A DNA stretch of 64,000 nt from Halichondria panicea (lineage: Eukaryota > Porifera > Demospongiae > Suberitida > Halichondriidae), in contig NC_087382.1 in the NCBI RefSeq assembly GCF_963675165.1, forward strand, positions 3,945,963-4,009,962, in the 5' to 3' direction. The notes under the pieces were generated by a model, which saw only the letters and a list, made by a program, of their open reading frames with translations, did no database searches and was not told the DNA's origin. Position numbers and translations under genes: made by a program. This document shows positions 25,911 to 54,327 of the stretch, piece by piece; positions within the stretch are counted from its first letter, which is position 1, and each line of letters starts with the position of its first letter.

Positions 25911-27761
25911 ATGCTGCTGAGAATGAGTGTCCTTGTATTGTGTATGAGCTGCCTGTGTCTATGGCTGGGGAAGGTGAGTGGTATAATAAGTCAGTAGCTG
26001 CAGTTGAGAGTACCAATGCTTGCAGCTCAGTGTACTGGTGTCTGCAGACTATGTGGTGCAAGTGAAGATGGTCTCCTACAGTCATCCATCCAACACACTC
26101 CCTGGTGGCCGATGTTGTGATTCACCACGGGGATTCAACGGTGTAGTACCATGTAACGAAGGGGAACGCTGTGACACCTACTTCATCTACTGCCTGAGGC
26201 CACATGCCAGTACTGCTACACCTTGTCCCAGTAATGAGCCCGGATATACTGCAGTCAGTAACTATATCGTGGATGGGGCAGACATTGATTTCACACAACC
26301 TACTGTACTAGGACTCTCTAATCCATTCAATCTGACTGGAATATTGACAGCCTGGGAGGTAAGATACTGTAGACTATTTCAATATACTATTGCTTGTGAT
26401 TACAGGGAGCTCAGCTTTACATACAAGTGCTTGATTATGATGCCTATTCATCAGATGATACTATTGCAAGGTATCGATTAAATCTGAATCCCTCCGTGTC
26501 AGTGGGATCAACAATTACACTATTTGCCTCAAGTACCGCTACTACAAGATTTAGTGCTACTGTGTTGTGTGCTCCTTTCTACAATGGAAGCAGTTGTGAG
26601 ATCTTCAATTACTATAACTGTGAGTCCATATGCAGAGAAACGTGTGTGAATGAAATGGACAGTTTCACTTGCAACTGTAACCCTCCTTACTTTGGTGCAA
26701 ACTGTGAGGATCAAAACTTTTGCTACAACAGAAATTGCAACGAAAGAGGAACATGTACTAATAACCTTGACTCCTACACCTGTGTCTGCAATGCTGGCTA
26801 TACTGGTGCTGATTGTGAAGACATTGATGATTGTGAGGGGCCGAGCTGCAGTGGAAATGGTGTCTGTATGGATGAGGTCAACTCTTACACATGTGCCTGC
26901 AATGTTGGCTATACTGGTGCTGATTGTGAGGTGGATATTGATGAGTGCTTGCTAATGGAGACAGTGTGCAGTGGCCATGGTAACTGCTCTGGAATAGCCA
27001 CTTCCACCTGCTCATGTGATCTTGGCTACACTGGACAGAAATGTGAGACCGACATTGATGATTGTGTGAATAGGAACTGCAGTGGAAACCGTGTGTGTGG
27101 ATGGTGTCAACTCGTTCAGTTGTGAGTGTGTGTCTGGCTTCACTGGAGAGATGTGCAGTGTGGAGACACAAGGTAAACACTAACATCCTTAACACACATG
27201 ACAGCTTATTTAGTGAATGTTGATAAGTCTTTCATCATGTTTGCTTTCTATACTGTAGAGATGAGATCAGATGATGCAACAGCTACTATATAGCAGGTGG
27301 AGTGGTGGGTGGACTGGTGGGCGTTGTGCTGATTACAGTCATAGTCATTCTCTTTGTGATTATTATCAAGAACAAGAAAGAGTCATCTAAATACAACCGT
27401 AAAACTTTTTCAGTTGTGTGTACTGTAACTTATTGTTTGTTTCCCTGCAGTAACTGTTAGTGGAGGAGGAACTGCCAACAATGACATACCATGTCAGAAC
27501 AACGTGGTGTACGGTGTATGTGAGATGAACACAGCTCAACCTCAAACCAACACCCTCCCTACTGGCCTACCCCTGTCCTCTCTACAAGAGCAGCAGTATG
27601 GCTACCCCTTGTGTTCCTTCCCACCAGTGTACGAAAGTGTGGAGTCGAGGGACGAGAAACTCATGATCAGTGTAAATGTTAGCTATGCAATCGTTGCTGA
27701 GCGTGAGGATGGACTGGGACAGACTAGTGATATCTATGATGATGTCAGTACGAGGCAATAA
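25911..27761 (+). pseudogene. Array unit 1: Notch-ligand-like MNNL/EGF membrane protein, class A tail, frameshifted
   Basis: Exons: 25911-25973 (signal peptide), 26026-26358 (MNNL part 1, 111 codons), 26406-about 27173 (rest of the C2-like domain and 5 EGF repeats), 27259-27398 (transmembrane), 27451-27761 (class A tail). The MNNL exon has GGRCCD and CDTYFIYC, the cysteine pattern of Delta/Jagged N termini. A 2-base loss in a GTGTGT run near 27090 shifts the last EGF into a stop, and a 2-base gain (ACTATATAGC instead of ACTATAGC) near 27288 disrupts the transmembrane exon. The two changes would restore the frame but a stop lies between them. The final exon is intact with VSYATV-equivalent (VSYAIV) and DIYDDV. 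Confidence 0.8.
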
Positions 27762-27799
27762 CTTTATTATTTGCTTTAACGCAATTACTGCATGTACTA

Positions 27800-28114
27800 T
27801 AACCTCTTGTTATCTCAAGTGTTTGCTCGTAGTTTAAATGGTTTGCGGACCCTGCATGCATTGTCATATGTATAAACTAGGGGGGGGGGGGGGGGGTGAT
27901 TCATCTATGTATGGAAGAGTTATGTACAGGCTGTAGGTTATGAATGAACATCCTGTATGAAGACATATTTATGACTTCCCACAGGCTGCAAGTATTACAT
28001 CCATGCTGCATGTTGATGGAATGCAAGGAGGGTGCATGTGACATAGTACTAGCAGACATCTCTTCAAAATATAGTTGTTAACATAAAGATAATTGCTGGC
28101 TATTGAATTACTGC
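27800..28114 (+). promoter_or_regulatory. Conserved 5' flank of unit 2
   Basis: Shares the block repeated before every unit: CTCTTGTTATCTCAAGTG, TAGTTTAA(A/G)TGGTTTG, GAACATCCTGTATGAAGA, TTGATGGAATGCAAGGAGG, ATTGCTGGCTATTGAA. Nearly identical to 49316-49628 before unit 9. A poly-G run lies at about 27880-27895. Confidence 0.5.
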
Positions 28115-28164
28115 ATGCTGCTGAGAATGAGTGTCCTTGTATTGTGTATGAGCTGCCTGTGTCT

Positions 28165-28916
28165 TAGACTCGCAAGCCACTCCCTTTTCTCTGATTGGAC
28201 GGGGGCGGGAGAAAAGGGACTGGTGACTCTGGGACACATTTTGTGTCTCTACCAGAATTTGGGTAGAGATTATTCATTGATTTTTCCACGTGATCCAAAA
28301 ATTGCGTGAGGTTAAGTAGAATTGCGTAGCCTGCAAAAGTGATCGCGGGCTTCTTAGCTACAGTTTAAGAATGGATGCTAGTGCTAGAAAAGAGAAGATG
28401 ATGGAGTAATAACATCATCAGGCATTCAGCTAGGATATAGTCATCTAAGACACCAGCAGAGATTAGCTTGTTTTAGTTTTACGTGATGAGAACTGGCAGC
28501 CGAAAGTCATTGGTTGCCTAAAGCTTTTAATAACCTGTACAATACAAGACAGGTAATGGCAGACGGCAGCAGTTGAATTGAGAGTAGTCAGACTTGTACA
28601 AGCTGTCTTAAATCGCTGCCACTCCTCGGTTCAAAGAAGGACTGCCAAGATTTCTACGTTCATCATCTGTTCCATGCTAATCCACAAGTTGTGGCACAAC
28701 AGACACTGGTACAAGGATCTAAAGGCTGGCTAGATAGATCTGTATACTTGTCTTCTGTGTGTCTTTAGCTTTTGACGCATCAGAATAAATGGATAATTTG
28801 CACGTGACATTAATATTTAATAGCATTCCTGATTTACACAAGCTGTAGCCCAGAGTCACCAGTCCCTTTTCTCCCGCCCCCGTCCAATCAGAGAAAAGGG
28901 AGTGGCTTGCGAGTCT
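28165..28916. mobile_element. 752 bp TIR element in the unit 2 signal-peptide exon, 9 bp target duplication
   Basis: Terminal inverted repeats 28166-28233 and 28849-28916 are 68 bp and identical (outer end AGACTCGCAAGCCACTCCCT). CCTGTGTCT (28156-28164 and 28917-28925) is duplicated on both sides; other units have it once. A 9 bp duplication with long TIRs suits Mutator-like elements. No transposase in the interior, so non-autonomous. Identical TIRs point to a recent insertion. Confidence 0.9.
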
Positions 28917-29417
28917 CCTGTGTCTATGGCTGGGGAAGGTGAGTGGTATAATAGTCAGTGTAGCTGCAGTTGAGAGTCCCAATGCTTGCAGCTCAGTATA
29001 CTGGTGTCTGCAGACTATGTGGTGCAAGTGAAGATGGTCTCCTACAGTCATCCATCCAACACACTCCCTGGTGGCCGATGTTGTGATTCACCATGGAGAT
29101 TCAACGGTGTAGTACCATGTAACGAAGGGGAACGCTGTGACACCTTCTTCATCTACTGCCTGAGACCACATGCCAGTACTACTCAATGTAGTTAAGGACT
29201 GTCCCTGTGATTGTTAAGGACTTTTTTGTACAAGTGATCATATCTTTGAGATAGTTTCATATGAATCAATGAAATTTTGTAGGAATGTAGTCTCATAAAG
29301 AAGCTACATGCTGACATAGACTATCTATGAGCTGAACAAATTTGTAGGTCATGTGACCTTTGAGGGTGGTGTTACAGTGTAATTACCTTTAATTGAAAAT
29401 CCAGAATGCATACAAGT

Positions 29418-29670
29418 GCAGCCACACCCCCAAATTTTTTTAGGAAAAAGATCTTCATTTTATCTTTCGTGTGGTGCCTGGAAAAAATTGTCCAGCATTT
29501 TTAGTTCAGCGGATATTTTAAATACGCATATATAATAAGGGGGCTTTAAATAGAAAAAACAACAGTTTCCCAGATTTATGCGTGCCTGCAAACGCTGCAC
29601 AAATTTTACACCAAAACAAGAAAGATAAAATGAAATTCTTCTTACAAAAAAAATTTGGGGGTGTGGCTGC
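29418..29670. mobile_element. Hairpin element replacing part of unit 2
   Basis: GCAGCCACACCCCCAAATTT at the left and its reverse complement at the right, arms about 50 bp. The right end abuts TATCACTGTGTGTGCTACTG, which is unit exon 3 sequence. No clear target duplication. Confidence 0.65.
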
Positions 29671-30677
29671 TATCACTGTGTGTGCTACTGTGTTGTGTGC
29701 TCCATTCTTCATTGGAAGCAGTTGTGACATCTTCAATCACTGTGAGTCCAATGCTGTCACATGCAGTGACAGAGGAATGTGTGTGAATGAAATGGACAGT
29801 TTCACTTGCAACTGTGACCCTCCCTACTTTGGTGCAAACTGCGAGTATCAAAACTTTTGCTGCAACAGAAATTGCAATGAAAGAGGAACATGTACTAATA
29901 ACCTTGATTCCTACACCTGTGTCTGCAATGCTGGCTATACTGGTGCTGATTGTGAGGTGGATATTGATGAGTGCTTGCTAATGGAGACAGCGTGCAGTGG
30001 CCATGGTAATTGCTCTCATGGAACAGCCACCTTCACCTGCTCATGTGATCCTGGCTACACTGGACAGAGATGTGAGACTGACATTGATGATTGTGTGAAC
30101 GTAAACTGCAGTGGACAAGGCAACTGTACTGACAGAGTTAACAGTTATGATTGTGATTGTTTCCCTGGTTACATAGATGCAATTTGCCAGACTGACATTA
30201 ATGAATGCGATGGAATAAACTGCAGTGGAAATGGTGGTTGTGTTGACATGGTGAACATGTTCCTATGTGACTGTGAACCTGGCTACACTGGTGCTGATTG
30301 TGAGACCAACATTGATGATTGTGTGAATAGGAACTGCAGTAGAAATGGTGTGTGTGTGGATGGTGTTAACTCGTTCAGTTGTGAGTGTGTGTCTGGCTTC
30401 ACTGGAGAGATGTGCAACACCACTTCAGGTATAATAAATTGTTTCATGCTGTATAAATTATACCTCTTGCAGAGTTGAATGGTGGTCCAGGGGATCTGAT
30501 AGGAGGAGTGGTGGGAGGTCTTCTAGTGCTGATGATGCTGATACTCCTGCTCCTGATAGTGGTTGTGGTGGTGTGTGTACGAAGAGCTCATGATCAAGGG
30601 AAGACCATTCAAGACAATCAGTTGCAAGGTAAGCTGTTGTGTATGCCTAGTAACATTGAAGTAGTACACATGCGTAT

Positions 30678-31765
30678 TAGCCTCGATCCCAGGCCGAGTT
30701 TTCGCTTTTATAACGGTTAGGCGAACAACTGGGCCTGGTACTAGTTGTCTGCGCATGCGTCAATCGTTCGTCAGATTCTGACGAATGGATATTCTCGTTC
30801 ACTTTCGTGACATTTATATTCGTGTACTATCGTGTACTAGAAGTCAGTTCCCGTTTTATCATTATTGGAATCGATTGGAATGGCTCTTAGCTGAAGCTTC
30901 TCTCTTCTCTGAAGCTTATTCTGAAGACTGAACAACAAGGGAAGAGGTATAAAGCTTTGTCAAGCTTGTTAAGGTCAGATATTTTTGTGTGGGCCCTATG
31001 GCCGGCTATGCTATCAAGTCTTGTTCATGTTTGGCAAGAATGTAGGTAGACTATAGTTTCATCATTAATATGGTGGATCAAGTGAAGAGTGTGAGCTAGA
31101 GAACTTGGTGCTGCCATCATCAGCTCGTCGACAATGACACTATAACCGAGAAATTTAATATGTATAGATCTACACGTATTTAAAATGTCTACTTCTCTGT
31201 ACAGGAGCAATGGCTAATATCCAGCTATCCCAACAGTGCTCCTCTTGGCTATACTAACGGACGAGACTGGACAGTTTGAGGTAAGGGTTTAACCGTCTTT
31301 GGTTTCTTTTAATATTGTCCTATACTCACAGACACAGGACTGGAGTATGACCTGCTCATTCGAGCGTTGCTGGGTAGCTCAGAGACATCAAGAGAATCTA
31401 CGTTTTCTCAAGCAATGAGTTACGAGTTGGGGCCTAGAATCAGAGAAGTCCAGCAGCCTGCTAAATCTTTTTGAAACGTAATTTGAAGGCATTCAATCAT
31501 CCTGAAGTTGCCCTGGGTCACTGTAATTGTGCTGCAGCACAACTGGCAACTCCCCAGGCCTTTGTGAAGCAGCTCCCTATGTGCATCTTTTGTGTACTCA
31601 CTCTGTGCATTTTCTGTGTACAAATTTCCATTATTGATTTATTAAATATTTTTGCCGACCACAAATATACAATGAAAATTTGACGCATGCGCAGACAACT
31701 AGTACCAGGCCCAGTTGTTTGCCTAACCGTTATAAAAGCGAAAACTCGGCCTGGGATCGAGGCTA
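30678..31765. mobile_element. 1,088 bp Mutator-like TIR element in a unit 2 intron, 10 bp target duplication
   Basis: TIRs 30678-30763 and 31680-31765 are 86 bp with one mismatch; outer end TAGCCTCGATCCCAGGCCGA. ACATGCGTAT (30668-30677) and ACATGTGTAT (31766-31775) flank it, and unit 6 keeps the empty site near 42665. The interior has exon-like pieces: one reading EQWLISSYPNSAPLGY before a GTAAGG donor near 31281, and one reading DTGLEYDLLIRALLGSSETS to a stop near 31473 after a CTCACAG acceptor. No transposase seen. Confidence 0.85.
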
Positions 31766-32269
31766 ACATGTGTATATGACTTTTTACTGTTTATATTTCA
31801 CTTACTTTACAACATGATTGGGTGTTTATGTTTCAGTATATGCCTGAGCTGTGTTTTGTCTCGAAATTACGCCCACTCATTAAGCTTTATACTCATGGAC
31901 TGTTGTTTTCCACAGGAGACACCATTTCCTACATACTTGGAGACAATCCAGTGTATGGGATTCCTGATCTGAGAACAGAACAAACTCCATCACTTCAGAA
32001 ACAGCAGAGTTTAACAACCCATATGGCAGCCTGGAATCACTCAACGATGCAGAACTGCAATTTATGGAGATGCAGATTTCGAAGATGTACCTTATGAATT
32101 GGCCCCTGCAGTATCAGACTATGAGACACCTGTAGTACGCACCTGTGTATGACAATAGTATTACAGAAAATTAAGGGCAGAACAATATTAATTTGAAATA
32201 ATATTATGCTGATGCAGCACATTTTAATTTTGTACGAAGTAATTAGGGTAGTATAAGGTAGTGACATGA

Positions 32270-32354
32270 TGTTAGCTATGCAACCGTTGCCGAGTGTGAG
32301 GATGGACTGGGACAGACTGGTGACATCTATGATGACGTGTACACGAGGCAGTGA
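32270..32354 (+). pseudogene. Relic class A tail downstream of unit 2
   Basis: About 28 codons matching the class A C-terminus (VSYATVAE, then GDIYDDVYTRQ, stop), lying 118 bases after the class B stop with no matching upstream exon. Confidence 0.7.
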
Positions 32355-32668
32355 CTTTATTATTTGCCTCTAAAGCAATTGCTAATTCAATTTGCTTACG
32401 ATTATTTTATGTTGATAACCTCTTGTTATCTCAAGTGCCTGCTTGCATGTAGTTTAAGTGGTTTGGTGGACTGTGGTAAATCAGCAAGTACAGGCCATGC
32501 ATGAATAACATCCTGTTTGAAGATTTATCTTTGAGTGACTTTGCAAGCACTAGCATATTTATATCATGTTGATGGAATGCAAAGAGGATGCATGTCTAAC
32601 AGAGATCAGTAACATGTAGATTAACATATCAAGCATGCAAGAATAGTTGCTGTCATTTGAATTACTGT

Positions 32669-35038
32669 ATGCTGCTGAGAATGAGTGTCCTTGTATTGTG
32701 TATGAGCTGCCTGTGTCTATGGCTAGGGAAGGTGAGTGGTATAATAGTCAGTAGCTGCAGTTGAGAGTCCCAATGCTTGCAGCTCAGTGTACTGGTGTCT
32801 GCAGACTATGTGGTGCAAGTGGAGATGGTATCTTTCAGTCATCCATCCAACAGGCGCTCAGGCGGTCAATGTTGTGATCCAGCCAACAATGGTGTAGGAT
32901 GTACCCTTGGGGAGCGCTGTGACACCTTCTTTGCCTACTGCCTGATGCCACGTAGCAGTACTGCTATAGTGTGTCCCAGTAATCCCCCCGGATTTCTTGC
33001 ATATAGTTTACGTGCCACCAATATCACTGACGGGGCTGACATTGATTTCTCACAATCTACTGTACTAGGACTCTCTAATCCATTCAATCTGACTGGAAAA
33101 ACGACAGCCTGGGAGGTTAAGATTCACTGTTTTTTTTTGTATTCAAATTACCATTTATTGTATTTGCAGGGAGCTCATCAGCTTTACATACGAGTGCTTG
33201 ATCTTGATAGCATTAGACCATTTCGCTTTGATCGTATTATAACGTATCGATTTGATCTGAGTCTCTCAGTGGGATTGACAACCACAGCATTTGCCTCATC
33301 AGATACCGCTAATATCGCTGTGAGTACTACTGTGTTGTGTGCTCCATTCTTCATTGGAAGCAGTTGTCAGTTTTTCAATTACTGTCAGTCCAATGCTGTT
33401 ACATGCAGTGACAGAGGAACATGTGTGAATGAAATGGACAGTTTCACTTGCAACTGTAACCCTCCCTACTTTGGTACAAACTGTGAGCATCAAAACTTTT
33501 GCTACAACAGATATTGCAACGAAAGAGGAATGTGTACTAATAACCTTGATTCCTACACCTGTGTCTGCAATGCTGGCTATACTGGTGCTGATTGTGAGAA
33601 CTGTGAAGGGCAGAGTTGCAGTGGAAATGGTGTCTGTATGGATGAGGTCAACTCTTATACCTGTGTCTGCAATGCTGGCTATATATACTGGTGCTGATTG
33701 TGAGGTGGATATTGATGAGTGTTTGCTAATGGAGACAGTGTGCAGTGGCCATGGCAACTGCTCTCATGGAACAGCCACCTTCACCTGCTCATGTGATCCT
33801 GGCTACACTGGACAGAGATGTGAGACTGACATTGATGATTGTGTGAACGTAAACTGCAGTGGACAAGGCAACTGTACTGACAGAGTTAACGACTTTAATT
33901 GTGATTGTTTCCCTGGTTACACTGATGCAATTTGCCAGACTGAAATTGATGACTGTGATGGAATAAACTGTAGTGGCAATGGTGGTTGTGTTGACATGGT
34001 GAACATGTTCCTATGTGACTGTGAACCTGGCTACACTGGTACTGATTGTGAGACCAACATTGATGATTGTGTGAATAGGAACTGCAGTAGAAATGGTGTG
34101 TGTGTGGATGGTGTCAACTCGTTCAGTTGTGAGTGTATGTCTGGCTTCACTGGAGAGATGTGCAACACCACTTCAGGTATAATAAATTGTTTCATGCTGT
34201 ATAAATTATACCCCTTGCAGAAGAGTTGAATGGTGGTCCAGGGGATCTGATAGGAGGAGTGGTGGGAGGTCTTCTAGTGCTGATGCTGATACTCCTGCTC
34301 CTGATAGTGATTGTGGTGGTGTGTGTACGAAGAGCTCATGATCAGGGGAAGACTATTCAAGACATTCAGTTGCAGGGTAAGCTGTTTGTGTACCTAACAT
34401 TGAAGTAGCTATATACATGCATGCACACTGTTTACATTTCACTAGTGTACAATGTGATCTGAGTGTTTATGTTTCAGTATGCTCGAGCTCATGAAAGGAT
34501 TTACTAAAGTTTGCATGTCTTATTTCAGCTGGAGACAACCCAGTGTATGGGATTCCTGAGAACAGAACAAATACCATGCATCACTTTAGAAACAGCAGAG
34601 TTTGACAACCTGATATATGGCAGCCTGGAATCACTCAACAATGCAGAACTAGTCAATCCAATTTATGGAGACGCAGATTTTGAAGATGCACCGGCTTATG
34701 AATTGGCCCCTGCAGTATCAGACTATGAGACACCTGTAGCACGCAGAGCTCAGGGGAAGACCATTCAAGACACTCAGTTGCAAGGTAATAATTAAGTTGT
34801 TTGTGTACCTAACACATTGAAGTATAGCTGTATACTCACAATCATGCACGTCACACTGCTTACATTTCACTAGTGTATATTGTTTACTTGTGATTGGAGT
34901 GTTTATGTTCAGTATTCCTGAGCTTTGCTGTTGTTTTCCACAGGATATCTAGACACCATTTCCTATATCCCTGGAGACAACGAAGACGTACCTTATGAAT
35001 TGGCCCCTGCAGTATCAGACTATGAGACACCTGTATAG
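32669..35038 (+). pseudogene. Array unit 3: MNNL/EGF gene, class B tail, two 4-base insertions
   Basis: Exons: 32669-32731, 32783-33115, 33170-34176, 34221-34376 (transmembrane), 34529-34784, 34944-35038. The N-terminal type is CCDPANNGVGCTLGERCD. Seven EGF repeats. GGCTATATATACTGG near 33684 has 4 extra bases relative to GGCTATACTGG in all other units, shifting the third EGF. ACCATGCATCAC near 34578 has 4 extra bases in the tail. Otherwise splice sites and frames agree. The tail keeps NPVY, an altered DNLIY and NPIY, plus two YELAP...DYETP modules. Either a recent pseudogene or two assembly errors; both extra segments are short self-repeats (TATA, GCAT). Confidence 0.8.
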
Positions 35039-35171
35039 TACGCACCTGTGCATGACAACAGTAATACACAAATAGAGCGCAGAACGATATTTCAATGTGG
35101 TTGATGATTTTCATTTACTGAGACTCATGAAATATGCACATTTTATATGAAGTAGTAAGATAGTGAGTGAC

Positions 35172-35270
35172 ATGATAAATGTAAATGTTAGCTATGCAAC
35201 CGTTGCCGAGCGTGAGGATGGACTGGGACAGACTGGTGATATCTATGATGATGTCAACACGAGGCAGTAG
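35172..35270 (+). pseudogene. Relic class A tail downstream of unit 3, frame still open
   Basis: 33 codons from MINVNVSYATVAERED to DIYDDVNTRQ and stop, unbroken, 133 bases after the class B stop. Could be an unused relic or an alternative last exon; no strong acceptor precedes it. Confidence 0.7.
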
Positions 35271-35621
35271 CTTTATTATTTGCCCCAAACGCAATTACTG
35301 TAGATCTCGATATTAACCTGTTGTTATCTCAAGTGCTTGCTCATATATATAGTTTAAGTGGTTTGCGAGCCGTGCATGGTCATGTAGCTATAGGGGGTGA
35401 TTTATCTATTGGAGAATAATTATGTACAGGTTGCAGGTTATGAATGAACATCCTGTATGAAAACATAATTTAAGTTGACTTCCCACTGGCTGCAAGCACT
35501 CTGTGCTGCATGTTGATCAATAAGGGTGCATGTGATACAGTACTAGCAGACATCTCTTTAAAATATAGCTGTATATCAAGCAAGATAGTTGCTGGCCATA
35601 AACTACTGCATACTGCTGAGA

Positions 35622-37379: not shown

Positions 37380-37643
37380 CTTCAATTTACCCCTAACGCA
37401 ATTGCTATTTATAAACTATACTTTTGTTATCTCAACTCTCAAGTGCTTTCTTGTAGTTTAAGTGGTTTGGGGGGACTGTGGTCACGTAGCTGTAGGTATC
37501 CTGATAGTGGGCTCATGCAAAACTAGAAAGTTAAAAGCACTAAGAGAATGCAGTGATGTCATTGTAATGATGTCATGAGATCATTGTAATTACTGTAATG
37601 GGTGTAATCACTGTAATGGGTGTCCTTGGAATGTGCAGGCGCA

Positions 37644-37790
37644 TGTTGCCCCACTAAACGAAACGCCATTAAAACGAAACAGCAGTCAATAATGGGCGTG
37701 GCACCTAACTTTATCCTTAATCCTAACCTAGCCCATTATTTGTTTCCGGTTGTTTCATTTTAGTGACGTTGCGTTTTAGTGAGACTACAT
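37644..37790. mobile_element. 147 bp MITE with 9 bp target duplication in the unit 4-5 spacer
   Basis: TGTTGCCCCACTAAACGAAA at the left and the complement of its pattern at the right (AGTGAGACTACAT). GCAGGCGCA occurs at both flanks (37635-37643, 37791-37799); the spacer before unit 8 has a single copy (near 47206). Confidence 0.8.
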
Positions 37791-38063
37791 GCAGGCGCAG
37801 GTCATGAATTAACATCTTGTACACACATGTGACAGTTACGAAGATTTTTATCTTTGAACGACTTCCCTCTTTTAAAATTGTAACTCACAATTTTGAAAAA
37901 GAGAAGTCGCTGAGGTTGCAAGCATCTATCCTGCATGCATGCATATGTACATGTATATCATCATTGTTTATGGAATGCAAGGAGGATGCATGTGACCAGT
38001 ATACTATTATAGTAGCTGTTAACAAGACAGTAGTAAGTTGCTGGCTATTCATTGAACTACTGT

Positions 38064-43048: not shown

Positions 43049-43192
43049 CTGTGTATGACAATAGTATTACAGAAAATGGAGGGCAGAACAATATTTAAGG
43101 TTGATAATTTAACTTACGAAATAATATTATGCTGATGCAGCACATTTTAATTTTGTACGAAGTAATTAGGGTAGTATAAGGTAGTGAGTGAC

Positions 43193-43281
43193 ATGATGTT
43201 AGCTATGCAACCGTTGCTGAGCGTGAGGATGGACTGGGACAGACTAGTGACATCTATGATGATGTGTACACGAGGCAGTGA
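43193..43281 (+). pseudogene. Relic class A tail downstream of unit 6
   Basis: Reads VSYATVAERED to DIYDDVYTRQ and stop; nearly identical to the relic after unit 2, as is the spacer that follows. Confidence 0.7.
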
Positions 43282-43597: not shown

Positions 43598-46500
43598 ATG
43601 CTGCTGAGAATGAGTGTCCTTGTATTGTGTATGAGCTGCCTGTGTCTATGGCTGGGGAAGGTGAGTGGTATAATAATAGTCAGTAGCTGCAGTTGAGAGT
43701 CCCAATGCTTGCAGCTCCGTGTACTGGTGTCTGCAGACTATGTGGTACAAGTGAAGATGGTATCTTACAGTCATCCATCTAACACAGTTTCTGGTGGCCG
43801 ATGTTGTGATTCAAGCTATCGTGAACCATGTGATGGATGGGAGCGCTGTGACACCTACTTCATCTACTGCCTGAGGCCACATGCCAGTACTGCTACACAG
43901 TGTCCCAGTACTGCTCCCGGATATACTGCAGTCAGTAACTATATCGTGGATGGGGCAGACATTGATTTCACACAACCTACTGTACTAGGACTCTCTAATC
44001 CATTCAATCTGACTGGAATATCGACAGCCTGGGAGGTAAGATACTGAAGACTATTTCAATATACTATTGCTTGTGATTGCAGGGAGCTCAGCTTTACATA
44101 CAAGTGCTTGATTATGATACCTTTTCATCACATGATACTATTGTAAAGTATCGATTTAATCTGAATCCCTCCGTGTCAGTGGGATCAACAATTACACCAT
44201 CTGCCTCAAGTACCGCTACTGCAAGGTTTAGTGCTACTGTGTTGTGTGCTCCATTCTTCATTGGAGGCAGTTGTCAGTTTTTCAATTACTGTCAGTTCAA
44301 TGCTGTCACATGCAGTGACAGAGGAACGTGTGTGAATGAAATGGACAGTTTCACTTGCAACTGTGACCCTCCCTACTTTGGTGCAAACTGTGACTTTTGC
44401 TACAACATATATTGCAACGAAAGAGAAACGTGCACCAATAATGGCTTTGATTCCTACACCTGTGTCTGCAATGCTGGCTATACTGGTGTTGATTGTGAAG
44501 ACATTGATGAATGTGAGGGGCAGAGCTGCAGTGGAAATGGTGTCTGTATGAATGAGGTCAACTCTTACACATGTGCCTGCAATGCTGGCTATACTGGTGC
44601 TGATTGTGAGGATGATATTAATGAGTGCTTGCTAATGGAGACAGTGTGCAGTGGCCATGGTAACTGCTCTCACGGAATAGCCACTTTCACCTGCTCATGT
44701 GACCTTGGATACACTGGACAGAGATGTGAAACCAACATTGATGATTGTGTGAATAGGAACTGCAGTGGAAATGGTGTGTGTGTGGATGGTGTCAACTCGT
44801 TCACTTGTGAGTGTGTGTCTGGCTTCACTGGAGAGATGTGCAGCACTGCAGGTATTGTTACGGTGGCCCTGAGCGTTACTATTAGTTCACCTTAGCTACT
44901 TGATACTTCGCCTACCTTAGCTACTGAGTAGTTCGCCTACCTTAGCTACTGGGTAGTTCTACTTGATAGTTCGCCTACCTTAGCTACTGGGTAGTTCACC
45001 TACCTTAGCTACTGGGTAGTTCTACTTGATAGTTCGCCTACCTTAGCTACTGGGTAGTTCACCTACCTTAGCTACTGGGTAGTTCTACTTGATAGTTCGC
45101 CTACCTTAGCTACTTGATAGTTCACCTACCTTCGCTGCTTGATAGTTCACGTACCTACCTTAGCTACTTCGCAATTGACCTTTGAACTGCATGTTAATTC
45201 TATTTAATGCTGCTGTAGCCGTACTGCACTGTACATAGCGACTCGACTATAGAGATCAATAATGAGAGCTACATAGCACGTATACAGGTACTGAGGATTA
45301 TCTAACAGCAATGCAAGACTAGAGTACCACACCAGAACCATTGTATAGTACAGAATTCTTGTGCTGCGATGGATATAAACGTGAACAACTTGAACTGCAT
45401 GTGTTGTATTAGTCTGGGGCCAGACCTTTTCTCAGAGGGGAGGGGGAAGAGAAGAAAAAGGTCTCTTAATCCTAGCTCTATTGCCCCAAGCTATTAGACT
45501 AGCTAGTATTGTGAATAACATGTAACTTCCAAATGAATCAAGTGTGGTACTCTCATCTTGCATTGCTGTTACCCATAGGGTAGCACTAACTGGCTGCAGA
45601 TAATCCTCAGTACCTGTATATATACATGGAGCTCTCATTTATATTGAGTCGCATGGCTCCAGCAGCAGCATTAACATACAGTTCAAAGGTCAACTTCGAA
45701 GTAGCTAAGGTTGGCGAACTACCCAGTAGCTAAGGTTGGCGAACTACCCAGTAGCTAAGGTTGGCGAACTACCCAGTAGCTAAGGTAGGTGAACTACCCA
45801 GTAGCTAAGGTAGGCGAACTATCAAGTAGAACTACCCAGTAGCTAAGGTAGGCGAACTACTCAGTAGCTAAGGTAGGCGAAGTATCAAGTAGCTAAGGTG
45901 AACTAATAGTAACGCTCAGGGCCACCGTATATTGTAGTTCAAACTAATTCTGTTATAATTATACTGTAGTGTTATAGGTGGTGGTCCAGGGAGCCTCACT
46001 CTGATAGGAGGAGTGGTGGGAGGTCTCCTAGTGCTGATGCTGATACTCGTGCTCCTGATAGTGGTTGTGGTGGTGTGTGTACGCAGAGCTCATGATCAGG
46101 GGAAGACCATTCAAGACACTCAGTTGCAGGGTAAGTTGTTTGTGTGCCTAACATTGAAGTAGCTATACATGCACACATGCATGCACTGTTTACATTTCAC
46201 TAGTGTAGTTTACTTTACAATGTGATCTGAGTGTTTATGTTTCAGTATGCTCAAGCTCATGAAACGATTTACTAAGTTTGCATGTCTTAATTTAGCTGGA
46301 GACAACCCAGTGTATGGGATTCCTGAGAACAGAACAAATACCATCACTTCAGAAACAGCAGAGTTCGACAACCCGATATATGGCAGCCTGGAATCACTTA
46401 ACGATGCAGACCTGGTCAATCCAATTTATGGAGATGCAGATTTCAATGATGTACCTTATGAATTGGCCCCTGCAGTATCAGACTATGAGACACCTATTAG

Positions 46501-46806
46501 TATACGCAGAGCTCATGATCAGGAGAAGACCATCATTCAAGACACTCAGTTGCAAGGTAATAATTAAGTTGTTTGTGTACCTGACACATTGAAGTATAGC
46601 TATGCTCAAAATCATGCACACTGTTTACATTTCACTAGTGTATATTGATTGGAGTGTTTATGTTTCAGTATGCCTGAGCTTTGCTGTTGTTTTCCACAGG
46701 AGATCTAAACACCATTTCCTATATTCCTGGAGACAACAAAGATGTACCTTATGAATTGGCCCCTGCAGTATCAGACTATGAGACACTTGTAGGTACCTGT
46801 GTATGA
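43598..46806 (+). CDS. Array unit 7: intact MNNL/EGF type I membrane protein, class B (NPxY) tail
   Basis: Exons: 43598-43660, 43715-44035, 44083-44851, 45978-46130, 46296-46556, 46700-46806; all GT-AG, phases agree, 558 codons with stop. Signal peptide MLLRMSVLVLCMSCLCLWLG; MNNL/C2-like domain with GGRCCDSSYREPCDGWERCD and CDTYFIYC; DSL remnant VLCAPFFIGGSC; five EGF repeats (DIDEC, DINEC, NIDDC). Transmembrane core VVGGLLVLMLILVLLIVVVV followed by CVRRAHDQ stop-transfer. The tail has NPVYGIP, NPIYGSL and NPIYGDA (three NPxY), two YELAP/DYET modules and IRRAHDQEKT, a repeat of the membrane-proximal segment. NPxY is known to bind PTB domains and clathrin adaptors; role here is inferred. A foldback element lies in intron 3. 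Confidence 0.85.
44859..45929. mobile_element. Foldback-like element with tandem subrepeats in its inverted repeats
   Basis: Outer ends TACGGTGGCCCTGAGCGTTA and its reverse complement. Arms of about 390-470 bp are made of direct subrepeats (CCTACCTTAGCTACTGGGTA, TAGTTCTACTTGATAGTTCG) and continue inward to CAATGCAAGA. TATTGT flanks both sides (44853-44858, 45930-45935); unit 10 keeps the empty site GCAGGTATTGTAGTTC near 53243. No transposase. Confidence 0.85.
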
Positions 46807-46930
46807 TAATAGTAATAGAGAAATAGCGCAAAACAATAATTATTTCAATGTGGTTGATAACTTCATACTGAGACTCATGAAATATGCTGATGCAGCACAT
46901 TTTGTATGAAGTAGTAAGGTAGTGAGTGAC

Positions 46931-47031
46931 ATGATAAATGTAAATGTTATAGCTATGCAACCATTGCCGAGCGTAAGGATGGACTGGGACAGACTAGTGA
47001 TATCTACGATGATGTCAACACGAGGCAATAA
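46931..47031 (+). pseudogene. Relic class A tail downstream of unit 7
   Basis: Starts ATGATAAATGTAAATGTTA as in the unit 3 relic but has 2 extra bases (GTTATAGCTATGC), so its frame is broken. Confidence 0.7.
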
Positions 47032-47405
47032 CTTTATGTATTATTATTTGCCACAACACAAATTACTAATTCAGTTTGCTTGCAATTATAATTTTATTTT
47101 GATAACCTCTTGTTATCTCAAGTGCCTGCCAGCTTGCTTGTAGTTTAAAAGTGGTTTGGTGGACTGTGGTAAATCATGTATCTATACATGTAGGGGTTGG
47201 AATGTGCAGGCACCGGTCATGAATAACATCCTGTTTGAAGATTTATCCTCTGAGTGAATTTTTGCAAGCACTATCCATGCATGCATGCATATTTATATCA
47301 TGTTGATGGAATGCAAGGAGGATGCATGTCTAACAGACATGCAAAGTAACATATCAAGCATGAAAGAATAGTTGCTGGCCATTGAATTACTGTATTCTGC
47401 TGAGA

Positions 47406-49278
47406 ATGAGTGTCCTTGTTACAAGGCTTGTATTGTGTATGAGCTGCCTGTGTCTATGGCTGGGGAAGGTGAGTGGTATGATAGTCAGTAGCTGCAGTTG
47501 AGAGTCCCAATGCTTGCAGCTCAGTGTACTGGTGTCTGCAGACTATGTGGTACAAGTGGAGATACTCTCCTACAGTCATCCATCCAACACACGCTCTGGT
47601 GGTCAATGTTGTGATTCACCATTGGGATTCAATGGTGTAGTACCATGTAACGAAGGGGAACGCTGTGACACCTACTTCATCTACTGCCTGATGCCACATT
47701 CCAGTACTGCTACACAGTGTCCCAGTAATGAGCCCGGATTTACTGCAACCAGTAACAATACCACTGACGGGGCAGACATTGATTTCTCACAACCTACTGT
47801 ACTAGGACTCTCTAATCCGTTCAATCTGACAGGAATATCAACAGCCTGGGAGGTAAAAATGATACTACAGACTATTTCAATATAGATCAGTACCATTTCT
47901 TGTTATTGCAGGGAGCTCATACATACAAGTGCTTGATTCTGATACTTCATCATATGATACTATTGTAAGGTATCAATTTGGTCTGAATCCCTCTGTGTCA
48001 GTGGGATCAACAATTACACCATCTGCCTCAAGTACCGCTACTGCAAGATTTAGTGCTACTGTGTTGTGTGCTCCCTTCTACATTGGAAGCAGTTGTGAGA
48101 TCTTTAATCACTGTGAGTCCATATGCAGAGAAACGTGTGTGAATGAAATGGACAGTTTCACTTGCAACTGTAACCCTCCCTACTTTGGTGCAAACTGCGA
48201 GCATCAAAACTTTTGCCACAACAGAAATCGCAACGAAAGAGGAACGTGTACAAACAGCATTGATTCCTACACCTGTGTCTGCAATGCTGGCTATACTGGT
48301 GCTGATTGTGAGGTGGATATTGATGATTGTGAGGGACAGAGCTGCAGTGGAAATGGTGACTGTATGGATGAGGTCAACTCTTACACCTGTGTCTGCAATG
48401 TTGGCTATACTGGTGCTGATTGTGAGGTGGATATTGATGAGTGCTTGCTAACGGAGACAGTGTGCAGTGGCCATGGTAACTGCTCTCATGGAATAGCCAC
48501 CTTCACCTGCTCATGTGATCCTGGCTACACTGGACAGAAATGTGAGACTGACATTGATGATTGTGTGAATAGGAACTGCAGTGGAAATGGTGTGTGTGTG
48601 GATGGTGTCAACTCGTTCAGTTGTGAGTGTGTGTCTGGCTTCACTGGAGAGATGTGCAGTGTGGTGACACAAGGTAAACACTAACTTCCTTAACACACTT
48701 GACAGCTTATTTAGATGCTTAGTGAATGCTGCTGTATAATTCTTCTTCAGCATGTTTGTTTTCTATATATACTTTAGACGTGAGATCAGATGATGCAACA
48801 GCTACTATAGCAGGTGGAGTGGTGGGGGGACTAGTGGGCGTTGCAGTCATAGTCATTGTCATAGTCATTATCATTAAGAACAAGAAAGAATCTTCAAAAT
48901 ACAACGGTAAGGCTATATATCTCAGTGTGTGTACTACACTAACATAACTTGTTTCTCTCCCTGCAGTAACTGTTAGTGGAGGAGGAACTGCCAACAATGA
49001 CATACCATGTCAGAACAACGTGGTGTATGGTGTGTGTGAGATGAACACAGCTCAACCTCAACCAACACCCTCCCTACTGGCCTACCCCCGTCCTCTATAC
49101 AAGAGCAGGAGTATGGCTACCCATTGTGTTCCCTCCCACCAGTGTACGAAAGTGTGGAGTTGAGGGACGAGAAACTCATGAGATCAGTGTAAATGTTAGC
49201 TATGCAATCGTTGCCGAGCGTGAGGATGGACTGGGACAGACTGGTGATATCTATGATGATGCCAGTACGAGGCAATAA
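47406..49278 (+). pseudogene. Array unit 8: MNNL/EGF gene, class A tail, several frameshifts
   Basis: Exons: 47406-47468, 47520-47852, 47912-48673, 48778-48906, 48967-49278. First ATG is ATT, so the second in-frame ATG would start; a 12-base in-frame insertion adds VTRL to the signal peptide. Exon 3 lacks 4 bases at its start (GGAGCTCATACATAC against GGAGCTCAGCTTTACATAC), so exons 2 and 3 are out of frame. The second EGF has C to R (NRNRNERGTC). The tail exon has a 1-base loss (CTCAACCAACACC) and later small gains and losses. Five EGF repeats remain readable. Confidence 0.8.
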
Positions 49279-49628
49279 CTTTTATTTGCTTTAACGCAAT
49301 TACTGCGTGTACTATAACCTCTTGTTATCTCAAGTGTTTGCTCGTAGTTTAAATGGTTTGCGGACCCTGCATGCATTGTCATATGTATAAACTATGGGGG
49401 GTGATTCATCTATGTATGGAAGAGTTATGTACAGGCTGTAGGTTATGAATGAACATTCTGTATGAAGACATATTTTAAGTGACTTCCCACTGGCTGCAAG
49501 TATTACATCCATGCTGCATGTTGATGGAATGCAAGGAGGGTGCATGTGACATAGTACTAGCAGACATCTCTTCAAAATATAGTTGTTAACATATCAAGCA
49601 AGATAATTGCTGGCTATCGAATTACTGT

Positions 49629-51636
49629 ATGCTGCTGAGAATGAGTGTCCATGTGTATGAGCTGCCTGTGTCTATGGCTGGGGAAGGTGAGTGGTATAAT
49701 AGTCAGTAGCTGCAGTTGAGAGTCCCAATGCTTGCAGCTCAGTGTACTGGTGTCTGCAGACTATGTGGTACAAGTGAAGATGGTATCTTACAGTCATCCA
49801 TCTAACACAGTTTCTGGTGGCCGATGTTGTGATTCTATCTATCGTGAACCATGTGATGGATGGGAGCGCTGTGACACCTACTTCATCTACTGCCTGATGC
49901 CACGTTTCAGTACTACTACTGAGTGTTCCAATAATGAGCCCAAATATACTGCAGTCAGTACCAATATCGAGGACGGGGTAGCCATTGATTTCTCACAACC
50001 TACTGTACTAGGACTCTCTAATCCATTCAATCTGACAGGAATATCAACAGCCTGGGAGGTAAATTAGTTACAATTAAACTGTATAGCAATTTCTCTTGTT
50101 ATTGCAGGGAGCTCAGCTTTACATACAAGTGCTGGATTTTGATACCGTTACATCAGATGATACTATTGTAAGGTATCGATTTGATCTGAGTCCCTCAGTG
50201 GGATCAACAATCATATCATCTAGATCTATAGCTAGATCATCAGATACTGGGGCTAGTATTGCTGTGAGTACTATTGTGTTGTGTGCTCCATTCTATTTTG
50301 GAAGCAGTTGTCAGTTTTTCAATTACTGTCAGTCCAATGCTGTCACATGCAGTGACAGAAGAATGTGTGTGAATGAAATCGACAGTAGCACTTGCAACTG
50401 TAACCCTCCCTACTTTGGTGCAAACTGCGAGCATCAAAACTTTTGCTACAACAGAAATTGTAACGAAAGAGGAACATGTACTTTTAATGGCTTTGATTCT
50501 ACACCTGTGTCTGCAATGCTGGCTATACTGGTGCTGATTGTGAGATGGATATTGATGAGTGCTTGCTAATGGAGACAGTGTGCAGTGGCCATGGTAACTG
50601 CTCTCATGGAATAGCCATCTTCACCTGCTCATGTGATCCTGGCTACACTGGACAGAGATGTGAGACTGACATTGATGATTGTGTGAACATAAACTGCAGT
50701 GGACAAGGCAACTGTACTGACAGAGTTAATGGCTTTGATTGTAATTGTTTCCCTGGTTATACTGATATCATTTGCCAGACTGACATTGATAAATGCGATG
50801 GAATAAACTGTAGTGGCAATGGTCGTTGTGTTGACATGGTGAACATGTTCCTATATGACTGTGAACCTGGCTACACTGGTGCTGATTGTGAGACCAACAT
50901 TGTGATTGTGTTAATAGGAACTGCAGTGGAAATGGTGTGTGTGTGGATGGTATCAACTCGTTCAGTTGTGAGTGTGTGTCTGGCTTCACTGGAGAGATGT
51001 GCAGTGTGGAGACACAAGGTAAACAACACTAACTTCCTTAACACACTTGACAGCTTATTTAGATGCTTGGTGAATGCTGCTGTATATGTTTATTCTTTTA
51101 GCATGTTTGCTTTCTATACTTCAGACGTGAGATCAGATGATGCAATAGCTACTACAGCAGGTGGAGTGGTGGGGGGACTAGTGGGCGTTGTGATGATTGC
51201 AGTTGTCATAGTCATTCTCTTTGTGATTATTGTCAAGAGCAAGAGAGAGTTATCTAAATACAACCGTAAGACTTTTTCAGTTGTGTGTACTGTAACTTAA
51301 ACATAACTTGTTTCTCTCCCTGCAGTAACTGTTAGTGGAGGAGGAACCGCCAACAATGACATACCATGTCAGAACAACGTGGTGTACGGTGTGTGTGAGA
51401 TGAACACAGCTCAACCTCAAACCAACACCCTCCCTACTGGCCTACCCCCGTCTTCTCTACAAGAGCAGGAGTATGGCCTCCCATTGTGTTCCCTCCCACC
51501 AGTGTACGAAAGTGTGGAGGCGAGGGACGAGAAACTCATGATAAATGTAAATGTTAGCTATGCAACCGTTGCCGAGCGTGGTGATGGACTGGGACAGACT
51601 GGTGACATCTATGATGATGTCAACATGAGGCAATGA
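49629..51636 (+). pseudogene. Array unit 9: MNNL/EGF gene, class A tail, broken signal peptide and EGF frameshifts
   Basis: Exons: 49629-49686, 49738-50058, 50108-51018, 51125-51265, 51326-51636. The signal exon lost 5 bases (GTCCATGTGTATGAGC), turning the hydrophobic core into a different frame. Exon 3 lacks one base near 50500 (GATTCTACACC) and one near 50900 (AACATTGTGATTG). N-terminal type matches unit 7 (IYREPCDGWERCD). Six EGF repeats; one cysteine is Y (FLYDCEPG). Transmembrane and tail exons are intact and nearly identical to unit 4. Confidence 0.8.
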
Positions 51637-51679
51637 CTTTAATTTACCCCAAACGCAATTACTGTACTAATATTAACCT

Positions 51680-51976
51680 CTTGTTATCTTAAGTGCTTGC
51701 TCGTCGTATATATGGTTTGCGGATCGTGCATGGTCATGTAGCTAGGGGGTGATTCATCTATTAATTTATGTAGGATGCAAGGTTATTGATGAACATCCTG
51801 TATGAAGACATGACTTCCCACTGGCTGCAAGTATAATTATATCCATGTGATTTATGCATCATATTGATTTATGCAAGAAGGGGTGCATATGACACAGTAC
51901 TAGCAGACATCTCTTCAAAATATTACATAGCTGTTAACATATCAAGCAAGATAGTTGCTGGCCATTGAACTACTGT
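51680..51976 (+). promoter_or_regulatory. Conserved 5' flank of unit 10 (array-wide block)
   Basis: Blocks shared by all units in order: CTCTTGTTATCTTAAGTGCT, TATGGTTTGCGGA, GAACATCCTGTATGAAGACA, GACTTCCCACTGGCTGCAAG, CAGACATCTCTTCAAAATAT, TATCAAGCAAGATAGTTGCT, GGCCATTGAACTACTG, then ATG. Equivalent blocks: 32416-32668, 35317-35621, 37424-38063, 39870-41075, 43340-43597, 47103-47405, 49316-49628, 62797-63293, and 25007-25910 (split by the MITE nest). Conservation may reflect shared promoter use or simply recent duplication. Confidence 0.5.
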
Positions 51977-54327
51977 ATGCTGCTGAGAATGAGTGTCCTA
52001 ATTGTATTGTGTATGAGCTGCCTGTGTCTATGGATGGGGAAGGTGAGTGGTATAATAGTCAGTAGCTGCAGTTGAGAGTCCCAATGCTTGCAGCTCAGTG
52101 TACTGGTGTCTGCAGACTATGTGGTACAAGTGAAGATGGCCTCCTACAGTAATCCATCCAACACACTCCCTGATGGTCAATGTTGTGATCCAGGCAATGG
52201 TGGAGGATGTAACGGAAAGAAGCGCTGTGACACCTTCTTCATCTACTGTCTGGTCCCACATTCCAGTACTACTACACAGTGTCCCAGTAATGAGCCCGGA
52301 TATACTGCAACCAGTGACCATATCGAGGACGGGGCAGACATTGATTTCTCACAACCTACTGTACTAGGACTCTCTAATCCTTTTAATCTGATAGGAATAT
52401 CACCAGCCTGGGAGGTAAATAATGATAGTAAAGCTAATTGTAGACTAATCAATTGTTATTGCATGCAGGGAGCTCAACTATACATACAAGTGCTTGATTA
52501 TGATACCCTTACATCAAATGATACTATCGTAAGGTATCGATTTGATCTGAATCTTTTCTCAGTGGGATCGACAAGCACATCATCTGCCACAAATACTAGG
52601 GCTATTATCGCTGTGAGTACTACTGTGTTGTGTGCTCCTTTCTACATTGGAAGCAGCTGTCAGTTTTTCACTCACTGTAAGGACAATGCTGTCACATGCA
52701 GTGACAGAGGAATGTGTGTGAATGAAATGGACAGTTTCACTTGCAACTGTGACCCTCCCTACTTTGGTGCAAACTGTGAGTATCAAAACTTTTGCCACAA
52801 CATATATTGCAACGAAAGAGAAACGTGTACCAATAATAATCTTGATTCCTACACCTGTGTCTGCAATGCTGGCTATACTGGTGCTGATTGTGAAGACATT
52901 GATGAATGTGAGGGGCAGAGCTGCAGTGGAAATGGTGTCTGTATGGATGAGGTCAACTCTTACACATGTGTCTGCAATGCTGGCTATACTGGTGCTGATT
53001 GTGAGGTGGATATTGATGAGTGCTTACTAATGGAGACAGTGTGCAGTGGCCATGGTAACTGCTCTCAAGGAATAGCCACCTTCACCTGCTCATGTGATCT
53101 TGGCTACACTGGACAGAGATGTGAAACCAACATTGATGATTGTGTGAATAGGAACTGCAGTGGAAATGGTGTGTGTGTGGATGGTGTCAACTCGTTCAGT
53201 TGTGAGTGTGTGTCTGGCTTCACTGGAGAGATGTGCAACACTGCAGGTATTGTAGTTCAAACTAATTCTGTTATAACTATACTGTAGTGTTATAGGTGGT
53301 GGTCCAGAGGGTATCACTCTGATAGGAGGAGTGGTGGGAGGTCTCCTAGTGCTGATGCTGATACTCCTGCTCTTGATAGTAGTCGTGGTGATGTGTGTAC
53401 GAAGAGCTCATGATCAGGGGAAGACCATTCAAGACACTCAGTTGCAAGGTAAGTTGTTTGTGCATGTATCTAACAGTGAAGTAGCTATACATGCACACAT
53501 GCATGCACTGTTTACATTTCACTAGTGTAGTTTACTTTACAATGTGATCTGAGTGTTTATGTTTCAGTATGCTCGAGCTCATGAAACGATTTACTAAGTT
53601 TGCATTTCTTAATTTAGCTGGAGACAACCCAGTGTATGGGATTTCTGAGAACAGAACAAACACCATCACTTCAGAAACAGCAGAGTTTGACAACCCAATA
53701 TATGGAAGCCGAGAATCATTCAACGATGCAGAATTGGTCAATCCAATTTATGGAGATGCAGATTTCGAAGATGTACCTTATGAATTGGCCCCTGCAGTAT
53801 CAGACTATGAGACACCTATTAGTATACGCAGAGCTCAGGGGAAGATCGTCATTGAAGACACTCAGTTGCAAGGTATAATTAAGTTGTTTGTGTACCTAAC
53901 ACATTGAAGTACAGTAGACTCTCGTTAATCTGGTCACCCTTGGGACCATGCAGCTTGGCTGGAATAGCGAGGTAAACGGAATAGCGAGTGGCCATACTTC
54001 AGGGTGAGTTTTGTGCAGTAAATATATAGCTAGCATTCCGTGCCAAGCCAAATGGCCGGTATATCGCGGTGGCTGTACTTTAGAGAGCCGGAATAGCGAG
54101 AGTCTACTGTATAGCTACACTCACAATCATGCACGTCACACTGTTTACATTTCACTAGTATATTGTTTACTTGTGATTGGAGTGTTTATGTTTCAGTATG
54201 CCTGAGCTCATGAATAGATTTGCTCTTGTTTTCCACAGGAGACACCATTTCCTATGTTCCTGGAGACACCGAAGACGTACCTTATGAACTGGCCCCTGCA
54301 GTATCAGACTATGAGACACCTGTATAG
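51977..54327 (+). CDS. Array unit 10: intact MNNL/EGF type I membrane protein, class B (NPxY) tail
   Basis: Exons: 51977-52042, 52094-52414, 52469-53246, 53296-53448, 53618-53872, 54239-54327; all GT-AG, phases agree, 554 codons with stop. Signal peptide MLLRMSVLIVLCMSCLCLWM (one extra codon). MNNL/C2-like domain with DGQCCDPGNGGGCNGKKRCD and CDTFFIYC; LYIQVLDYD starts the second C2 half; DSL remnant VLCAPFYIGSSCQFF; five EGF repeats with DIDEC, DIDEC and NIDDC calcium-binding starts. Transmembrane VVGGLLVLMLILLLLIVVVV, then CVRRAHDQGKT. Tail has NPVYGIS, NPIYGSR, NPIYGDA, two YELAP modules and DYETPV at the end. Exons 2 and 3 read in one open frame through the intron. A TA-site MITE sits in the last intron. 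Last complete unit of the array. Confidence 0.85.
53912..54109. mobile_element. 198 bp TA-target MITE in the last intron of unit 10
   Basis: Ends CAGTAGACTCTCG and CGAGAGTCTACTG, flanked by TA on both sides; unit 7 keeps the empty site GAAGTATAGCTATG near 46593. A longer relative lies at 57270-57658. Interior words GGAATAGCGAG and GAGCCGGAATAGCGAG repeat. Confidence 0.85.

Follow-up and report, generated by a model that had tools for sequence, protein, structure and literature searches.

We describe here a tandem array of Notch-ligand-like genes in a 64,000-nucleotide stretch of the genome of the sponge Halichondria panicea (hereafter, the window), which corresponds to positions 3945963-4009962 of contig NC_087382.1 (contig C6 below). 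Ten units lie head-to-tail on the + strand between positions 25911 and 54327 of the window, and a truncated eleventh begins at 63282. Their products join the C2 domain of Notch ligands to EGF repeats, and only a short hairpin is left of the intervening DSL domain. The reading that we prefer, with a probability of about 0.5, is that they are Delta-derived variable cell-surface recognition proteins that underwent a lineage-specific expansion, rather than canonical Notch agonists. The case is real and well supported as anatomy and homology and strongly suggestive as evolution, and as function it would be a reading of sequence.

The N terminus of these proteins is, by profile comparison, a Notch-ligand C2 domain (MNNL, PF07657), as the earlier note on this DNA had claimed. 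In genome scans, which covered 131 Mb in 39 contigs, MNNL matched units 4, 6, 7, 10 and 11 above the cut-off (23.7-25.2 bits) and units 1, 3, 5 and 9 slightly under it (21.0-21.5 bits), while units 2 and 8 were absent from the matches. With sequences restricted to C2, all 15 tested of the 24 collected matched PF07657 at E<=1, unit 10 scoring 29.2 bits for a cut-off of 22.5. A profile built from 15 of the 24 DSL-less C2-plus-hairpin sequences retrieved 10 PDB sequences at E<1e-3, Notch ligands throughout: fly Delta (3e-12), Jagged-1 (4.4e-11), Jagged-2, DLL1, DLL4 and Serrate. Moreover, hhalign aligned this profile with 6 of the 7 DSL-bearing paralogs collected from the same genome (99.7%, E 3.8e-27), the alignment reaching through the hairpin. 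The C2 cysteines and several core residues were invariant across the 15 sequences. When the EGF repeats were left attached, Pfam recognized MNNL in one of five DSL-less proteins (L017) and in none of units 7 and 10, L007 and L016, possibly because the long EGF stretch was caught by a filter. Prokaryote contigs scanned with one peptide pattern yielded 12 stretches, with no relative among them.

The DSL domain proper has disappeared. In true ligands, C2 is followed by VxC-x8-C-x3-C, a Notch-contact loop such as RPRDDSFGHSTC (fly Delta) and two further cysteines. In most window copies, as read in open frames, C2 is followed by VLC-x8-C-x5-C and then by EGF cysteine spacing, so that, unlike in Delta/Jagged, an EGF stands in place of cysteines 3-6 of DSL and of the contact loop; units 1 and 8 have shorter first EGF loops. 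PF01414 (DSL, E<=0.001) matched 26 times genome-wide, with zero matches in the window and zero on contig C6. A DSL model that we built gave 65-83 bits for the 9 true DSL domains on which it was trained; by best domain, none of 24 DSL-less copies exceeded 9.9 bits, and an EGF control scored -0.5. The two groups stood 55 bits apart. The C-x8-C hairpin is the homologue of the first DSL disulphide loop, and the collapse proposed in the earlier note stands. Could a DSL exon have been missed? This was ruled out, since C2b (the second half of C2), the hairpin and the first EGF lie in a single open exon, which leaves no room for it, and contig C6 has no DSL match. Jagged-1 R203 and F207 are named as Notch-interface residues in the accessible part of PMC5538765; by numbering, the segment that holds them has no counterpart in the DSL-less copies.

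The same replacement of DSL by EGF was found in divergent copies on contigs C10, C14, C12 and C15. Contig C15 holds two further variants, in which C2 plus hairpin is joined to a Ser/Thr-rich stalk or leads to a tail of type A (see below). Since they do so, C2 with the first DSL hairpin behaves as a module, which suggests that it is separable and can precede DSL, EGF or a mucin-like stalk. These variants lie at L014 (~53.5 kb) and on the minus strand of L013 (7291-9470, ~38-40 kb), with NPxY-bearing frames downstream of both. Their open frames contained neither DSL nor clear EGF, although exons may be missed, and they are possibly intermediates or offshoots.

Each unit follows one exon order: a signal-like exon of the MLLRMSVLVLCMSCLCLWLGK type; C2a, the first half of C2, with ~110 codons that include the motifs CC and CDTYF; after a short intron, C2b, hairpin and all EGF repeats in a single exon; an exon for the transmembrane (TM) segment; and tail exons. 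The EGF repeats gave Pfam matches, and the hydrophobic TM segment and tail exons were assigned by inspection only. A type I membrane protein is predicted, presumably displayed at the cell surface, with a C2 tip, the hairpin, about 3-9 EGF repeats, one TM segment and a tail with tyrosine motifs. The claim that every unit pairs a clear C2 with EGFs was borne out for the general layout; unit 2 has lost the second C2 half, and unit 8 has a short deletion where C2b starts. The family resembles Delta/Jagged, sponge Deltas included, in its N-terminal C2, first DSL hairpin, EGF repeats, single TM segment and short-motif tail, and the DSL-bearing paralogs, judging from their open frames, seem to divide C2 over two exons at the corresponding position. 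Unlike Delta/Jagged, it comes in many tandem copies and carries a diversifying-selection signal at C2 sites.

Two types of tail were found. Tail A (units 2, 3, 6, 7 and 10) carries DNPVYG, FDNPIYG and NPIYG and ends in ETPV (unit 10) or TCV (unit 7), and tail B (units 1, 4, 5, 8 and 9) carries LPPVYESV, VSYATV and DIYDDV. NPxY and PPxY are usual recruiters of phosphotyrosine-binding (PTB)/clathrin adaptors and Nedd4-type ligases, and VSYATV presumably fits an immunoreceptor tyrosine-based inhibitory motif (ITIM).

We evaluated selection on 24 pattern-readable copies from the fetched loci plus unit 10, among them window units 3, 4, 6, 7, 9 and 10, and on a second set of 19 copies with long open EGF exons, a filter that does not guarantee that the whole gene is intact. 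By the Nei-Gojobori method, the ratio of nonsynonymous to synonymous substitution rates (dN/dS) of C2 was 1.04 (25 copies) and 1.06 (19 copies), with bootstrap intervals of 0.82-1.36, and 0.95-1.00 without gap columns. For the hairpin plus first EGF it was 0.52 and 0.50, respectively. The M1a/M2a site model was our own implementation on a fixed tree, and near-duplicates were dropped beforehand (3 of 25 and 2 of 19; a near-copy in L025 stands for unit 4). Twice the log-likelihood difference (2dlnL) of M2a over M1a was 187 for 22 sequences (210 codons) and 141 for 17 sequences (209 codons), and the third class had an omega of 3.7-4.0 and comprised 13-18% of codons. In gap-free columns with separate trees, 2dlnL was 50.9 for C2a (92 codons) and 28.3 for C2b (46 codons), with 9-14% of codons in the class, and a non-significant 1.3 for the hairpin plus first EGF (51 codons). 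In twenty data sets simulated under M1a with no recombination, 2dlnL ranged from 0.0 to 5.3. All 16 sites with a posterior above 0.95 fell in C2, with zero in the hairpin or first EGF. The diversifying-selection signal is therefore confined to C2.

On Jagged-1, the 16 sites fall at 60, 65 and 68; 87, 88, 93 and 101-102; 139, 145 and 148; and 165, 167, 168, 171 and 176. In our reading, Jagged-1 87-102 belongs to the strand 2-3 loop, which makes up Notch site 1. The numbering was verified against N53, K65, D140 and D144 of PMC5538765, and, by the residues given in the accessible part of that paper, the first and third groups (60-68 and 139-148) lie in or beside the apical membrane-recognizing loops.

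The distribution of tails A and B on the ectodomain tree resembles a random one. Among 22 labelled units, tail type required 8 changes, for a mean of 7.7 after shuffling, and 377 of 500 shuffles were as low. Labels were set by hand, for 19 of the 25 tree units plus window units 1, 5 and 8; the six others, with tail unassigned or mixed, were left out. A recent case was found just beyond the window. L025 (C6 from 4.0115 Mb) is a duplicate of units 3-5 that matches window positions 32229-39313 at 96-100% per 150-column block, with 114 additional bases, one EGF in length. Past ~39313, near the end of the EGF exon (39326), identity drops to 47-57%, and L025 has tail A where its window counterpart has tail B. 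In BLAST pieces without the 114-base gap opened, the last EGFs of L025 were 87% identical to those of unit 5 and 93% to those of unit 9, so the switch point may fall inside the EGF exon. Wherever the breakpoint falls, comparison of the two copies indicates a recent tail change. Because one copy on C15 and one on C9 hold both motif sets (DNPVYG, FDNPLY, PPVY, YAT and IYDDV), tails A and B look like two descendants of one. We also noticed that units 2, 3, 6 and 7, all with tail A, are followed downstream by fragments of the final tail-B exon (32268-32351, 35172-35267, 43195-43278 and 46951-47028), which fit tail exchange by recombination.

Further members of the family occur outside the window: on C6 they reach as far as ~4.035 Mb, and others lie on C14, C9, C12, C15, C10 and C5. 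Genome-wide, there were 58 MNNL matches, 39 of them above cut-off; 12 had a DSL match within 5 kb, and 27 of the 39, or 46 overall, had none, a crude distance test in which strand was ignored and matches were counted exon by exon. In a tree of 33 C2 sequences, of which 24 were DSL-less, 7 were DSL-bearing and 2 came from bilaterians, the DSL-less sequences formed one side of a branch with support 90/90; several branches are long and the deeper order is uncertain. According to the accessible part of PMC6040629, one choanoflagellate has a protein with both MNNL and DSL, and four choanoflagellate species express MNNL or DSL, never both; unlike the sponge family, the single-Delta-domain proteins are not described there as an expanded tandem family. 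Since proteins with both domains occur in a choanoflagellate and in bilaterians, a single loss of DSL in the ancestor of the family appears the simpler reading. In at least one survey of sponge Notch ligands, AmqDelta2-5 were found by DSL-domain search (PMC3482393, as far as its accessible text goes), and a DSL-less sister family would be missed by such a search. Among titles and abstract openings of the open-licence literature, we found no description of such a DSL-less C2-EGF family; new here are the C2-restricted diversifying-selection signal and the shuffling of tail types over the ectodomain tree.

To account for these observations, we propose that in a common ancestor the second half of DSL (cysteines 3-6, with the Notch-contact loop) was exchanged for a complete EGF repeat, with C2 and the first disulphide hairpin of DSL retained. 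The C2 loops would contact a changing partner, a protein or the membrane of another cell, conspecific or microbe, and the EGF repeats would act as a stalk extending the C2 tip. Tail A, with its NPxY motifs and PDZ-like end, or tail B, with its PPxY and YxxV motifs, would then deliver one of two responses, and recombination inside the arrays would let one kind of tip be combined with tail A or with tail B. More tentatively, one may envisage an allorecognition or immune receptor system made from a Notch ligand, whose C2 tip was diversified loop by loop and recombined between two signalling tails; each genome of this early-branching animal would then encode a repertoire of several dozen tip-tail combinations. 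If the C2 loops do recognize variable partners, these genes would be candidate sponge self/non-self receptors, and a developmental ligand would have turned into a recognition receptor.

Several points weigh against variable recognition proteins. The predicted structure (16 window-only rows, the first of which reads through one short intron) was a poor fold model, with a mean predicted local distance difference test (pLDDT) score of 38.9 and a predicted template modelling (pTM) score of 0.38; Foldseek with that model gave Notch-ligand chains as its first 24 rows, at TM-scores of about 0.3, which carries little weight. The tail motifs are short, and their function is a prediction. Seven of the ten window units are broken, so that the array is decaying in part. 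For C2 as a whole, dN/dS is no higher than about 1, with intervals that include 1, and the selection case therefore rests on the site model, whose fits and null simulations assume no recombination, whereas these arrays recombine. Fast evolution is not universal among DSL-less copies, since C2a dN/dS was 0.55 in the C12 subfamily (5 copies; C2a is covered, as no C2b sequence fitted the pattern used). Lastly, the contrast with true ligands is not established, because the DSL-bearing control has 3 copies (C2a 0.82, interval 0.39-2.1; C2b plus DSL 0.49).

Alternatively, the proteins might be non-canonical Notch-pathway ligands, cis-inhibitors or decoys that keep a weak affinity for Notch at the C2 face (site 1) and tune signalling by the true DSL ligands, endocytic NPxY tail motifs pulling or sequestering the receptor; we regard this as unlikely, if the best placed of the alternatives. 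A frame downstream of the true DSL ligand L002 (C15, 2.18 Mb), probably its tail, has FDNPIY, as tail A has. However, the Notch-contact DSL loop is gone, and fast-changing sites align with Jagged-1 87-102, which we take as part of the strand 2-3 loop of site 1. The genome has 3 matches to the Lin-12/Notch repeat (LNR), at two places only, versus the 46 MNNL matches without a nearby DSL. Given the lost DSL contact, the rapid change of a probable contact loop and the LNR count, Notch agonism by the DSL-less family appears less likely. In favour of the alternative, DLL4 contacts Notch at two sites, one of which is supplied by C2, according to the accessible part of PMC5538765. Against it, the vertebrate proteins DNER and DLK1, formerly regarded as Notch ligands, which like the family have EGF repeats and no DSL, are reported, in the accessible text of PMC5021350 and PMC12216052, not to bind Notch or act as its ligands; they are precedents for DSL-less proteins that do not act through Notch. 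In the sponge family, unlike in these two, C2 is kept (MNNL matched) and is the variable part. DLK1 and DNER are, to our knowledge, without MNNL/C2. The earlier note had left three options, ligands for something else, decoys or non-canonical Notch ligands; of these, the first is the more probable in the light of selection and tails, and the interpretation given in the note is partly supported.

A more doubtful proposal is that of fast-evolving cell adhesion or gamete-recognition proteins with no immune or allorecognition role. The C2-EGF type I architecture would suit them, and reproductive proteins also usually show diversifying selection at the tip and tandem expansion. Yet two alternative tyrosine-motif tails suggest signalling into the carrying cell, and no feature found here points toward gametes. 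The weakest explanation, mostly neutral birth-and-death of a redundant family whose constraint relaxed after DSL loss and whose pseudogenes raise dN/dS, would accommodate the broken units and the mean C2 ratio near 1, but is improbable given the constrained hairpin and first EGF of the same copies, the site signal that persists in copies with long open EGF exons (a filter that does not prove whole genes intact) and the invariant cysteines and C2 core residues.

As variable recognition proteins, they recall known systems. Hydractinia Alr and vertebrate paired receptors form tandem arrays of type I genes with a variable membrane-distal domain and alternative signalling tails on similar ectodomains, which are of the Ig type. 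The sponge family likewise shows tandem arrays (type I by inspection), diversifying selection at the C2 tip and differing tails, which may signal. It differs by its Notch-ligand C2-EGF ectodomain, and it is known here from the genes of one genome.

Regarding the array itself (Table 1), the CDTYF-type codon motif (at most one mismatch) occurred 11 times in the window for 0.6 expected; its chance origin was ruled out by shuffles, the maximum of which was 2. A 300-nt repeat family had 10 copies, with 64-94% identity to the reference copy, and the first half of C2 occurred 11 times, incompletely in unit 2 (28992-29180) and unit 11 (63396-63650). Ten copies plus a truncated one are thus present, as claimed, but not as coding capacity: with GT/AG introns, only units 4, 7 and 10 were open to the end (497, 557 and 553 codons), whereas units 1, 2, 3, 5, 6, 8 and 9 were broken.

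Table 1. Units of the C2-EGF array and domains of unit 10 (window positions)
Feature	Position	Strand	Description
Unit 1	25911-27761	+	Tail B; signal exon 25911-25973, C2a 26026-26358, C2b+hairpin+EGFs from 26406; frame break in last EGF, stop 27123
Unit 2	28115-32134	+	Tail A; pseudogene: signal exon (exon 1) interrupted, C2a partial, C2 second half lost; open EGF frame within 29522-30478
Unit 3	32669-35077	+	Tail A; C2a 32783-33115, C2b from 33170; frame break in EGFs, stop 33695
Unit 4	35622-37379	+	Tail B; open, 497 amino acids counted from inner Met; exons 35622-35672, 35724-36044, 36091-36763, 36865-37002, 37069-37379
Unit 5	38064-39826	+	Tail B; in-frame TAG within hairpin at 38735
Unit 6	41076-43036	+	Tail A; frame break in EGFs, stop 41998
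Unit 7	43598-46806	+	Tail A; open, 557 amino acids; exons 43598-43660, 43715-44035, 44083-44851, 45978-46130, 46296-46556, 46700-46806
Unit 8	47394-49278	+	Tail B; C2b exon frameshifted by a short deletion at its start; tail frame shifted too
Unit 9	49651-51636	+	Tail B; signal exon shortened; frame break in EGFs, stop 50567
Unit 10	51977-54327	+	Tail A; open, 553 amino acids, C terminus ETPV; exons 51977-52042, 52094-52414, 52469-53246, 53296-53448, 53618-53872, 54239-54327
Unit 10, C2 (MNNL) domain	52094-52627	+	One intron included; 16 codons with posterior >0.95 for dN/dS>1 within 52193-52600
Unit 10, hairpin (LC-x8-C) and EGF1	52628-52777	+	Occupies the DSL position
Unit 11	63282-63650	+	Truncated: signal exon and part of C2a, nothing more

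Some further loci of the genome deserve mention. At L003 (contig C2, 2.054-2.064 Mb), tandem MNNL-DSL-TM frames were found, with no EGF in the open frames; the spacing of DSL cysteines 2-3 was shortened in 2 of 3 copies, and a downstream frame contained repeated EEPxYS-like motifs. Sponge AmqDelta4, described in the accessible part of PMC3482393 as a DSL ligand without EGF, is like the L003 ligands. Contig C4 has two places (5457205-5457588 and 5594023-5594406) with three consecutive DSL matches each, in a 275-codon frame, and no MNNL match within 5 kb; DSL-only repeat genes are reported from cnidarians in the accessible part of PMC2770060. L006-L008 (C12, 1.81-1.87 Mb) form a distinct cluster of divergent, DSL-less C2-EGF genes, in which EGF repeats are numerous.

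Within the window, a 663-codon frame (59166-61157, + strand, stop to stop) lies between units 10 and 11. A Pfam search at E<=0.01 gave no match for 59169-61157 (+) or for the frame 58743-59474 (-). Finally, three inverted-repeat pairs were noticed in or near unit 2 (28166-28916, 29418-29670 and 30677-31766, with arms of 81, 55 and 87 nt, respectively), the first of which splits the signal exon and the second of which occupies the expected place of the second half of C2.

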